The notes beneath the pieces were generated by a model. That model searched no databases. It had not been told where the DNA came from and saw nothing but the letters and a program-made list of their open reading frames with translations. From Bacteriovoracaceae bacterium (GTDB lineage: Bacteria > Bdellovibrionota > Bacteriovoracia > Bacteriovoracales > Bacteriovoracaceae), in assembly GCA_024711325.1 (NCBI GenBank), contig JANJTC010000005.1, positions 186,001 to 250,000 of the forward strand: a DNA stretch of 64,000 nt, given 5' to 3'. The position numbers and the translations under genes are program-made. Shown here one piece after another: positions 1 to 3,879 of this stretch (position 1 is its first letter; each line of letters starts with the position of its first letter).

Positions 1-5
1 TTGAA

Positions 6-2924
6 CTAGAGTGAACATTTCTTTTTGAAATTACCCAGGATGAAGCCGGCCTGATTTGCAAATTCTTGAACTTCCAGGACAATTTTTTTGTTTAAATCAC
101 CAATGTTCAATAGATGCCTCTTGCCACTGAAGCCTAATGAAAAAGTTTCGGCCATGCAGGCATAGCATTCATTTTTTGCCAGTGGAAAGATGAAGAAATC
201 AATCGACTGATTATGAGGGATTTGGGCTACTCCACCCAAGTGATAGGTGAGGTCAGGTCTTTGTGTTTCGATTAAGTTAAGCATCTCGGGTTTAATGGAT
301 GGAGGAACAGCAACATCAACAATGACAGCATCCTGTTTAAAGAGGTCAAGGCTTAAAAAACCATTGGATGCACTCGCTCCGCAGAGAACAATATCTGATT
401 CCTTAATTTGGGTGATATCAGATGTTGCGATAAAAACGTTCTTCACTTCCGGAAGCTCCAGGAATTGAAGTAGATCAAGATCTTTATTCCAAAACTTTTT
501 AATGGTCTTCACAACTCTGGAGTCGGAATCCGACTCAGCAATCTCACACAGGACTTTCTTGGTCGCTTGCTGATATTTTAAGCTTGATTCAATCGGAGTG
601 TGATGAATCATGAGGATCTTTCCTACATGATCTGCCATAAGACTTGTAGCTACCGACATAATGTTTCCGGCCGCTCCAATTAAGGCCACAGTAGCGTTGG
701 ATAAATCAACATTTTTATCCGCTGCTGACTTTAGCGCCGATTGAACGGTTAAGCCGATAGTAAAAGCATTACCCGTCGTTAAATTCATTCCATGGGAATT
801 AAGATATAAACCATTACCTGAAATAATTGAAGTAAACTGTCCAAGGCCTACAGTCGTGGCACCCAGTTCCTTGGCAAAATCGAGTGCATTTTGAACTTTC
901 TGAACAACTTTGTATTTATTCTTTGAAATGAATGTCTTTTTTAGTTCTTCCGAAGAAACCGGAATCCCGAGCATGACAATGTCCATTTCTTTTCCGGTCG
1001 AATCAATGATTGTTTGAGCATGATAAACTTCAAATTCTGCCAAGTCTTTTGTTTGTGCAAGTTTGTCCATCAATAGGTCGCCCTCAACACCTCTTAGGGC
1101 ACGTGTAACTTTTCTTACATGGGATTCATCAATTAAGTGGCAAAGAAATACGCTTAAAGGTCTTTGACCAAGTTCAAGGCTGATATTTAATTCAGGTGTC
1201 TGGTCATTTGTTACTGATTGATTAGGATAAATTGCCGACAAAAAATAAGCTATGTTTTTGTCTCGCAGTGCTTTGCATAGATTTGTTAACGCCGCCATCA
1301 TTTCTTCAACTTGAATGATAGAGAAATACATGCTGGGTTGAATCCTGAGAGTCAGACTATTAGACAAGGATGGACTCATTCGCACACCCTCATGATTGAG
1401 GAGTACCGAAGCCATCATATAACCCTGCATGTTTGAATCGCAAATGGTTTTAAACTCAAAACCCATGTTGGCAAGAATATCTGTGAACTCGATTGCAAGC
1501 ATTAAGCCTTTCCCGCGAATTTCTTTTATTACTTCTGGAAATTGATTTTTCAAAGTATCTAAACGTACTGAAAGATAATCGGCCGTTTGCATTCCTGATG
1601 CCACTGGTGAATTTTCACCTTGTAGGATGTCTAGAACTTCAAGAGCAATTGAAGAAGAAAAATCATCATCACTAAAAGTTGAGGTATGGAGGAAACCGAA
1701 TTCTTCAATATACTTTCTTTTATTAACTGAAGTTGCAGCTATCTTCGCTACCCCGCCACCCAGTGATTTTGAAAATGTATAAATATCCGGTGTGATATCA
1801 GTATGAGATGCTGATGCCAGTTTTCCAGTGCGGTACATTCCGGCCTGGATTTCATCAAAAACCAAGAGGAAATCTTCCTGGAGGGAATACTTCTTTAGGT
1901 TGGCAAGAAAGCTGTTATTAATGCTGATCACTCCAGCTTCGCCTTGAATGGGTTCAACGAAAGCTCCTGCCAATAATGAGAAAGAATGACGGGCCCAATT
2001 TACGCCATGGGAGGTATTACTTAAAAGAATCAGATCTTGCCTGGTAGATTGGATGAGTTTTTCAAATTCTTCCTGGCCAATATATTGTGAAATAAAATGA
2101 GTGAATTCATTTTGATCACTTCCCAGATAAAATGAATCTCTAAAACCTTCATTAAAAGTAAGACTTAATGAACCCATGGTCTTTCCATGGAAGGCTTTCT
2201 CCAAAGCAATAAAAGACGGTCTTTGTGAAAGTTGTTTCTTATTGATTTCTCTTACTAAAGAGATAAGTTCATTTATCCCGTGAGAATGCGCAACCTGATG
2301 CAGAAAGTAGGACTTCCTTTCATCATTCATATTTAATAAGCTTATCTTCTCAATCAGACTGGACCTAAGATTGTGGACAAGTTTATTTTTTAAAAGCTCA
2401 TCTGTTCTATTGATCGTCATTAATGCCAGATTGATTTCTTTTTCAATCTCTTGGCCGAGTGCAATCATCTTATGTTTAAAAAAGATAAGGCAATGTTTAT
2501 AGGCAGCTTCCACTGCTTCGGTTCCTGAATTCGTTAAAGTGGTGATCCAGGGACCTTCACCTGTTTCATCAGTCAAAGTATCAGATAGTCGTTTGGCAAG
2601 TTTGCCAGCTTCTTTTCGATTACTTCCTTGAGTAAGTGAAGGCGTTCCTTGCTCCGACCACGCCTGGACTTTGGCCAGTATTGACGGGTGCCGGTGGCCC
2701 AGGATGTTTGCTCCATAACCACCAGTTAAATCAAGTACCTTATAAAGCTTGTTGTTTTGATTATAATAGAGATAGTCGCCTTCACCATGGTGGAAATGCT
2801 TGGTAAGTTCCATCGTTTCCAAAAGCTTGGAAGTCATTGGACGGGCAAAGTACTTAAAGGAATCTTTATGGGAGTCCTCCTCAACTTGAGTCCTGATTGA
2901 AAGCGGTAATTGGTTGTTATCCAT
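6..2924 (-). CDS. Class III aminotransferase fused to acyl-ACP-reductase-like domain
   Basis: The protein has 972 residues. Residues about 30-555 form a fold-type I PLP aminotransferase of class III: TNSGTEAVEAA (131-141), a metal-free PLP-binding Asp in LVFDEIQAG (D357) and the Schiff-base Lys in TFSKSLGGG (K386). A charged helical stretch at about 155-230 interrupts the usual order just before EKAFHGKTMG. Residues about 590-972 resemble cyanobacterial long-chain acyl-ACP reductase: GQFTSII (695-701), LTTGNAFT (715-722), a Rossmann-type ALIGAAGNI (747-755) and YACMAETF (921-928), where C923 matches the acyl-accepting Cys of that family. From the family chemistry I infer that an acyl thioester is reduced to the aldehyde and then transaminated to a long-chain amine. 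TamH of tambjamine biosynthesis is a comparable reductase-aminotransferase fusion. It stands alone on its strand at the window edge. The domain calls are strong; the product is inference. Confidence 0.85.
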   Translation of the reverse strand: MDNNQLPLSIRTQVEEDSHKDSFKYFARPMTSKLLETMELTKHFHHGEGDYLYYNQNNKLYKVLDLTGGYGANILGHRHPSILAKVQAWSEQGTPSLTQGSNRKEAGKLAKRLSDTLTDETGEGPWITTLTNSGTEAVEAAYKHCLIFFKHKMIALGQEIEKEINLALMTINRTDELLKNKLVHNLRSSLIEKISLLNMNDERKSYFLHQVAHSHGINELISLVREINKKQLSQRPSFIALEKAFHGKTMGSLSLTFNEGFRDSFYLGSDQNEFTHFISQYIGQEEFEKLIQSTRQDLILLSNTSHGVNWARHSFSLLAGAFVEPIQGEAGVISINNSFLANLKKYSLQEDFLLVFDEIQAGMYRTGKLASASHTDITPDIYTFSKSLGGGVAKIAATSVNKRKYIEEFGFLHTSTFSDDDFSSSIALEVLDILQGENSPVASGMQTADYLSVRLDTLKNQFPEVIKEIRGKGLMLAIEFTDILANMGFEFKTICDSNMQGYMMASVLLNHEGVRMSPSLSNSLTLRIQPSMYFSIIQVEEMMAALTNLCKALRDKNIAYFLSAIYPNQSVTNDQTPELNISLELGQRPLSVFLCHLIDESHVRKVTRALRGVEGDLLMDKLAQTKDLAEFEVYHAQTIIDSTGKEMDIVMLGIPVSSEELKKTFISKNKYKVVQKVQNALDFAKELGATTVGLGQFTSIISGNGLYLNSHGMNLTTGNAFTIGLTVQSALKSAADKNVDLSNATVALIGAAGNIMSVATSLMADHVGKILMIHHTPIESSLKYQQATKKVLCEIAESDSDSRVVKTIKKFWNKDLDLLQFLELPEVKNVFIATSDITQIKESDIVLCGASASNGFLSLDLFKQDAVIVDVAVPPSIKPEMLNLIETQRPDLTYHLGGVAQIPHNQSIDFFIFPLAKNECYACMAETFSLGFSGKRHLLNIGDLNKKIVLEVQEFANQAGFILGNFKKKCSL

Positions 2925-3096: not shown

Positions 3097-3879
3097 ATGG
3101 AAACGGCCAAATGGAATTATTTTCAGTATCGTAAGAATCATAATTATCCCATTTACATCCGTTTTAAACAGGACGAATTAAATCCGAAATTTTCACATCT
3201 TTTAAATGAGATGGGCTTTTTAATGTTATCAGAAATTGAATCCAGGAAAATTTCGCTCCAGCGGGCCCAGACCCGAATGCTAACAATACAAAATGCTAAC
3301 ACAAGATTACAGCTTCAAATCAATGGTTCTGACCTTATGGAAAAATATGGGCCAGAGTCACTTTCTCTCCAGATGGGAATGCCGGTTTATACCTATCGAA
3401 AAGTTGGAGTCATGGGGCTTCCCCTTACAAAAACATTATGGGACCTCGCTCTTCATCCTGATTTATCACACACAGATCAAATGGTTGGATTAAGGGTTAT
3501 TCTCGTGAGGTATTTGTCTCAGGCGCTGGCAGAGCAAGGGGTACTTTGTTACTGGGGCACAGTGAAAGATGATGCTGTGATTGTCATGAAGCAGCTTCAA
3601 TCATTTGGCGAAGCTGTTTTAATTGATATTAATAAAAAGGTTATCTTTTCTAATGGAGGAGAAATCAAATTAGGCTCTTCCCTGAAGATCATCCGGAAGG
3701 ATAAAGAGGTGAGCTCTTCAAGAGTCATGTCCCGTGAAGATGTCATTGGGTTCTTAAGTGTCAGCACCTGTTTATTAAGTTTCAATGGGATTACCCCTTC
3801 TATGAAAAAGGCGATTTACGAACTCAGTTCCAATGTCAGTGGCTCTTATGCTTCCAGTGAAAACGCAGTTAATCTCTAG
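3097..3879 (+). CDS. Hypothetical protein, 260 aa
   Basis: No family is recognised. The protein is soluble, with no signal peptide or membrane segment, and is mixed alpha/beta in composition. The start is supported by AAGGAG eight bases before the ATG. It precedes lgt by 35 bp on the same strand, so co-transcription is possible. It is divergent from the aminotransferase fusion; the 172-bp space between them holds the inverted repeat AGTGTC-N9-GACACT (3007-3027). The coding character is good throughout. Confidence 0.7.
   Translation: METAKWNYFQYRKNHNYPIYIRFKQDELNPKFSHLLNEMGFLMLSEIESRKISLQRAQTRMLTIQNANTRLQLQINGSDLMEKYGPESLSLQMGMPVYTYRKVGVMGLPLTKTLWDLALHPDLSHTDQMVGLRVILVRYLSQALAEQGVLCYWGTVKDDAVIVMKQLQSFGEAVLIDINKKVIFSNGGEIKLGSSLKIIRKDKEVSSSRVMSREDVIGFLSVSTCLLSFNGITPSMKKAIYELSSNVSGSYASSENAVNL

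Follow-up and report, generated by a model that had tools for sequence, protein, structure and literature searches.

Enzymes related to the two halves of the protein described here include: (i) fusions of an aminotransferase and a thioester reductase in a single chain, such as PtTamH of Pseudoalteromonas tunicata and, with the order reversed (reductase first) and a conserved cysteine, PigE (4ppm), which makes the pyrrole precursor of prodigiosin, and (ii) stand-alone enzymes, such as CrmG (5dds) of caerulomycin biosynthesis and the cyanobacterial acyl-ACP reductases (AAR; 6jzq, 6jzu and 6jzy) of alkane biosynthesis. PtTamH is a 941-residue aminotransferase/thioester-reductase fusion of the tambjamine YP1 pathway and is the only characterised fusion with the domain order reported below. 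In vitro, it converts C12-ACP to the C12 amine through an aldehyde intermediate that was seen, uses NADH and not NADPH, prefers plain C12 and, together with TamA (ANL-ACP), forms the C12 amine from the C12 acid (PMC9594044).

In the window (the whole 64,000-nucleotide stretch of Bacteriovoracaceae DNA that was analysed), one minus-strand ORF with an ATG start encodes a single polypeptide of 972 residues with a class III aminotransferase at the N terminus and an AAR-type reductase at the C terminus (Table 1). This fusion had been called from the letters alone, with no strand given, and is confirmed by the ORF, the PF00202 match, and the profile and fold matches. Asp357, Lys386, Gly750, Gly753 and Cys923 are invariant in 26 of 26 aligned fusions across phyla, and the AlphaFold model of the whole protein has a mean pLDDT of 86. 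Comparison with the nearest relative gives a dN of 0.013 and a dS of 0.21 (dN/dS ~0.06); the low dN relative to dS in both halves indicates that the gene is under purifying selection.

The N-terminal half matches PF00202 over residues 46–518 (E 5.7e-58; 197 bits versus a gathering score of 30.5), and its predicted fold is best matched by CrmG (2e-38, Foldseek), which is also the closest aminotransferase by sequence but stands alone. Together with the invariance of Asp357 and Lys386, this bears out the complete class III aminotransferase described by the sequence-only reading. The domain carries a long insert that is helical in the predicted model. Stand-alone ORFs that resemble this insert (matching ~residues 160–247 only) persist in three relatives without the full fusion, at the same location and with similar ends; they could be either remnants or small proteins that have been kept.

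No Pfam family matches the C-terminal ~400 residues. A single-sequence search relates this half to cyanobacterial AAR (6jzu, 4.5e-6) and to the reductase half of PigE (4ppm), while a profile of the 26 fusions matches AAR with an E of 8.5e-33 and PigE 4ppm, the best C-terminal profile match, with 2.8e-39. The AlphaFold model of the domain (mean pLDDT 89) is closest in fold to AAR 6jzy (Foldseek E 6.7e-19, TM 0.75 on the target), with ~20% identity in the structural match. The predicted acyl-accepting Cys923 and the GAAGNI Rossmann turn, both named among AAR landmarks before any alignment was available, hold up: Cys923 falls on Cys294 of AAR in the profile alignment, and the turn aligns with the AAR motif GATGDIG, with Ile755 invariant alongside the two glycines. 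Structure prediction and comparison with AAR, which had been proposed as a check, return the AAR fold with the cysteine equivalence kept. The TSI and TTGN motifs are likewise common to AAR and the window protein, and Ser699, Thr716, Gly718 and Asn719 are also invariant across the 26 fusions.

The sequence-only reading had seen no biosynthetic cluster, which is an edge effect: the fusion gene ends five bases from the window edge, a lipid-type cluster begins there, and the cluster was missed for this reason. The fusion gene converges on a row of plus-strand genes and overlaps the last cluster gene by 9 bp. The two cluster phosphotransferases (PPDK1 and PPDK2) are of the RPH/PigC type, with ATP-grasp and phosphohistidine domains only and a swivel-domain His motif in both; the rifampin phosphotransferase (PMC4844700) and, likewise, PigC serve as the comparison for this domain make-up. 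The cluster of the window organism encodes neither a dedicated acyl carrier protein nor an acyl-ACP ligase, and Psd and Pss are likewise missing from it. A literature search of open-licence articles found no description of the cluster, which appears to be undescribed in that searchable literature. The cluster appears to be designed for the synthesis and export of an uncommon membrane lipid; the undescribed lipid suggested earlier as the product fits this context, though as a prediction.

Table 1. Features of the fusion gene, the adjoining cluster and the stand-alone insert-like ORFs (C1, contig coordinates; L045, L155 and L157, loci of relatives).
Feature	Position	Strand	Basis or remark
TamH-type fusion gene, 972 aa	window 6..2924	-	ORF and translation, family matches
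Aminotransferase domain, ~residues 22-556	window 1257..2861	-	PF00202; CrmG best by sequence and fold
Long helical insert, residues 134-232	window 2229..2525	-	helices in predicted model
D357 codon, expected PLP pyridine-N aspartate	window 1854..1856	-	invariant in 26 fusions; aligned in CrmG, YgjG
K386 codon, expected PLP Schiff-base lysine	window 1767..1769	-	invariant in 26 fusions; aligned in CrmG, YgjG
AAR-like thioester reductase domain, ~residues 590-972	window 9..1157	-	profile match 6jzq and 4ppm; Foldseek AAR 6.7e-19
GAAGNI codons, residues 750-755, dinucleotide-binding turn	window 660..677	-	G750, G753, I755 invariant; aligned with GATGDIG of AAR
C923 codon, predicted acyl-accepting cysteine	window 156..158	-	invariant; aligned with AAR C294 and PigE GCMAET
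YghO-type acyltransferase, last cluster gene	window 1..14 (3' end); gene C1:184881-186014	+	overlaps fusion by 9 bp
P450	C1:183584-184891	+	family search
PPDK1	C1:181191-183587	+	family search
UbiA	C1:180319-181194	+	family search
CarS-like (CDP-archaeol-synthase-like)	C1:179754-180311	+	family search
Two LolC/E-like permeases	C1:177299-179742	-	family search
LolD-like ATPase	C1:176620-177309	-	family search
LolA-like	C1:175884-176627	-	family search
Outer-membrane-type protein	C1:174673-175884	-	family search
PPDK2	C1:172378-174696	+	family search
Stand-alone insert-like ORF, 104 aa	L045:9596-9910	-	
Stand-alone insert-like ORF, 99 aa	L155:9303-9602	+	
Stand-alone insert-like ORF, 72 aa	L157:7958-8176	-	

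Within the genus, and again in a second genus, the genes follow the order PPDK2-OMP-LolA-LolD-LolC/E-LolC/E-CarS-UbiA-PPDK1-(P450)-acyltransferase-TamH; at least eight more genomes of the family share this order, whether or not they carry the P450. Among 58 related genomes, which share ancestry and are not phylogenetically independent within the genus, the fusion co-occurs with the acyltransferase (14/15 vs 1/43) and with CarS (13/15 vs 3/43). On the window side, a 260-residue protein, Lgt, a 173-residue protein and MltD are constant neighbors; as they persist where the cluster is gone, these genes are placed outside it. The 260-residue protein (window 3097-3879, plus strand) is always beside lgt in the genus and has no Pfam or NCBIfam match. 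Partial cluster losses are noted in L046 and L047. A truncated CarS abuts a truncated fusion gene in G001, and exporter genes directly follow the fusion gene in G009; both are draft genomes, such that assembly error is possible. A second cluster type occurs in other Bacteriovoracaceae and other members of the genus (L040, L041, L042, L043, L052 and L053), with a protein of ~680 residues that has an AAR-like C-terminal half. The neighbors of this protein are a male-sterility-type reductase, a diacylglycerol-kinase-like protein and DUF3419 (BtaA-like), joined in several cases by PPDK1, UbiA, acyltransferase and Lol-like exporter genes.

Full-length fusions are 46–73% identical to the window protein in Bacteriovoracaceae (97% in the nearest genome) and 26–30% identical in Desulfobacterales, Planctomycetota, Riflebacteria, Undibacterium, Pseudomonas and many actinobacteria. 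Outside the two genera, an RPH/PigC-type phosphotransferase gene is nearby in 23 of 37 fusion loci by our count. The other 14, which include Pseudomonas, Photobacterium and several actinobacteria and of which some lie on short contigs, have none nearby; thus, the fusion family has roles in more than one pathway. In five Nocardia loci (L075, L078, L084, L085 and L107), the synthase is itself fused to an RPH/PigC-type phosphotransferase, giving ORFs of 1,856–2,022 residues (aminotransferase, AAR and phosphotransferase; one ORF reaches the contig end) with a P450 and a second phosphotransferase downstream in most. Fuller gene sets are found in Desulfobacterales (L065 and L072: PPDK2, TamH, UbiA, DUF3419, PPDK1, acyltransferase and PS decarboxylase), Undibacterium (L064: TamH, PPDK2, CarS, an archaetidylserine-synthase-like protein, PS decarboxylase, PPDK1 and a weak UbiA match) and a planctomycete (L063: PPDK2, acyltransferase, Psd, DUF3419, UbiA and PPDK1). 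Distant Bdellovibrionota loci are also among those that, as a group, add UbiA, CarS, Psd, DUF3419 or archaetidylserine-synthase-like genes. Plasmid matches in Rhodovulum and Streptomyces have other contexts (polysaccharide-type genes and a lone aminotransferase near a polyketide synthase, respectively). In Photobacterium sp. DA100 (L150:6952-21059), where the record is unannotated, a fusion homolog is lined up with ACP-, KAS- and SDR-like ORFs, by our own ORF reading, followed by outer-membrane-type, LolA-like and large RND-like proteins; judged from these ORFs, the row is possibly a different amine lipid pathway. An alpha-oxoamine synthase (BioF/SPT-like) is near the fusion in L137, L164, L168, L169, L170 and L171 (other Bdellovibrionota and Nocardia); in some of these, it is a different enzyme from the genome's main SPT.

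The window protein is proposed to be a TamH-type fatty-amine synthase whose amine feeds the neighboring lipid cluster, a reading that is given a probability of about 0.6. The C-terminal domain would accept an acyl chain from a carrier-protein thioester on Cys923 and release it as an aldehyde with NAD(P)H, and the N-terminal PLP domain would convert the aldehyde to a primary amine, with glutamate as the probable donor. Both steps are established for PtTamH and are assigned to the window protein by homology and conserved residues. Once passed to the lipid cluster, the amine may undergo, not necessarily in this order: (i) N-acylation by the YghO-type acyltransferase, (ii) phosphoryl transfer or condensation at the expense of ATP, catalysed by the two RPH/PigC-type enzymes, (iii) tailoring by UbiA and the P450, (iv) CTP activation by the CarS-like enzyme, (v) head-group addition, by cluster-encoded Pss/Psd in some relatives and perhaps by housekeeping enzymes in the window organism, and (vi) delivery toward the outer membrane through the Lol-like exporter. 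From the gene content, we infer that the amine would feed an uncharacterised exported phospho-aminolipid. The sequence-only reading had already arrived at a possible one-protein fatty-amine synthase, which is well backed by homology and domain order as well as by the catalytic residues and the predicted folds; the idea is not new, however, as the in vitro activity of PtTamH is published (PMC9594044). A simple N-acyl-alkylamine route offers no obvious role for UbiA and CarS, which counts against this best explanation, as do Met756, the missing carrier-protein, ligase, Psd and Pss genes, the 14 fusion loci that show no phosphotransferase nearby, the low identity (19–21%) of the acyltransferase to YghO and the shared ancestry behind the co-occurrence counts. 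More tentatively, and with doubt outweighing confidence, the product of the cluster may belong to an as yet undescribed class of membrane phospholipids that spans several phyla, in which a TamH-made fatty amine replaces glycerol phosphate or serine as the starting point of the backbone, the head group is added by archaeal-like UbiA/CarS/Pss/Psd enzymes, and, in Bacteriovoracaceae, a dedicated Lol-like system exports the lipid toward the outer membrane.

The acyltransferase raises the matter of sphingolipids. The enzyme of the window organism is 19% identical to YghO over 283 aligned positions (E 4e-13), while that of the Desulfobacterales cluster is 21% identical over nearly the full length (E 2e-20). 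YghO of E. coli is listed as a dihydroceramide acyltransferase, aca (PMC9386255), and yghO is near spt in the E. coli BL21 genome region that was read. A YghO-type acyltransferase, and family relatives with SPT beside the same acyltransferase family, would suit a cluster that is a side branch of classical sphingolipid synthesis; this is improbable, as no strong SPT match (E below 1e-60) was found in 26 genomes of the genus or in G029. The same query has strong matches in 16 of the 58 relatives, all outside the genus. Its weaker matches in G005 and G012, probably bioF, adjoin a class III aminotransferase, while a single match (1e-51) in G020, a 59% complete genome, is of uncertain identity. As SPT is not convincingly found in the genus, the acyltransferase probably acts on another amine, for which the fusion product is an obvious candidate. 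A simple replacement of SPT by TamH was considered but is not proposed: SPT is also missing in genomes of the genus without TamH, and TamH-bearing members of other genera have SPT. Phylogeny confounds a mutual-exclusion test (Fisher p 0.006), which was therefore set aside. Binomial values for co-occurrence, which drew on an assumed background rate and an earlier count, were likewise left out of the argument.

The nature of the substrate can also be read differently. The fusion could, for example, act on a thioester with a hydroxy- or ketoacyl chain or on an intermediate that the cluster itself provides, and so yield a functionalised amino alcohol or base instead of a plain fatty amine; a plain alkylamine lacks the hydroxyl on which head-group chemistry depends, CrmG serves caerulomycin biosynthesis, a TamH relative lies beside KAS/ACP/SDR-type ORFs in Photobacterium (our own ORF reading), and others, in Bdellovibrionota and Nocardia, have an alpha-oxoamine synthase close by. 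This is possible but rather unlikely, given that PtTamH prefers plain C12 (PMC9594044) and that the P450 could install the hydroxyl later. Considerably less probable is a tambjamine- or prodiginine-like alkaloid, formed by PigC-like condensation of a TamH amine tail with a pyrrole aldehyde. TamH and PigC/RedH-family enzymes are both present, and NCBIfam models NF052631 and NF052632 match both phosphotransferases, but far below the curated cut-offs and no better than generic PEP-synthase/RPH models, which score equal or higher; moreover, no bipyrrole genes are seen within the cluster, and CarS, UbiA, Psd and the Lol-like exporter are lipid-type. Least credible is an inactive or structural reductase half that leaves the aminotransferase to work alone. 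Its one foothold is the GxxGxxG motif, in which the first two glycines are present and the third is Met756, one visible departure from PtTamH. PigE has a cysteine at this position, which suggests that the third glycine is probably not essential, and is reported to reduce its thioester (PMC8341465). The invariance of Cys923, Gly750, Gly753, Ser699, Thr716, Gly718 and Asn719 and the low dN/dS of the reductase half also argue for a working domain.

If the amine-derived phospholipid is real, it would represent a new membrane-lipid route. In Bacteriovoracaceae, whose members include well-known bacterial predators, it would also be a candidate for a component of the outer membrane. The product is unlikely to be an archaeal ether lipid as such, as GGGP synthase (PF01884) is absent from each of the 17 cluster- or fusion-bearing genomes searched (7 of 14 controls positive). 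The archaeal-type head-group module (UbiA/DGGGPS, CarS, archaetidylserine synthase and Asd) is resembled here by UbiA and CarS and, in the Undibacterium cluster, by archaetidylserine synthase and PS decarboxylase. By contrast, the cluster combines a fatty-amine synthase with RPH-type phosphotransferases and lacks GGGP synthase. The larger point is a conserved gene set in which a fatty-amine synthase stands together with phosphotransferases, an acyltransferase of the ceramide-synthase type and head-group enzymes that resemble those of archaea. Filing the fusion as a tambjamine-pathway gene was rejected, as the neighbors are lipid-type and no tam cluster surrounds it.

The window protein is distantly related to PtTamH, whose design it shares, and is one more TamH-type fusion, and TamH, a characterised family, is extended to many phyla. 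Landmark spacing is similar between PtTamH (Lys340, Gly707/Gly710 and Cys887) and the window protein (Lys386, Gly750/Gly753 and Cys923), a comparison based on the residue numbers printed in PMC9594044. PtTamH partners with TamA, is encoded in a bipyrrole cluster and keeps the third glycine of GxxGxxG, whereas the window protein has lipid-type neighbors and Met756. The new part is the gene context: a known enzyme design in surroundings unlike the published tam context.
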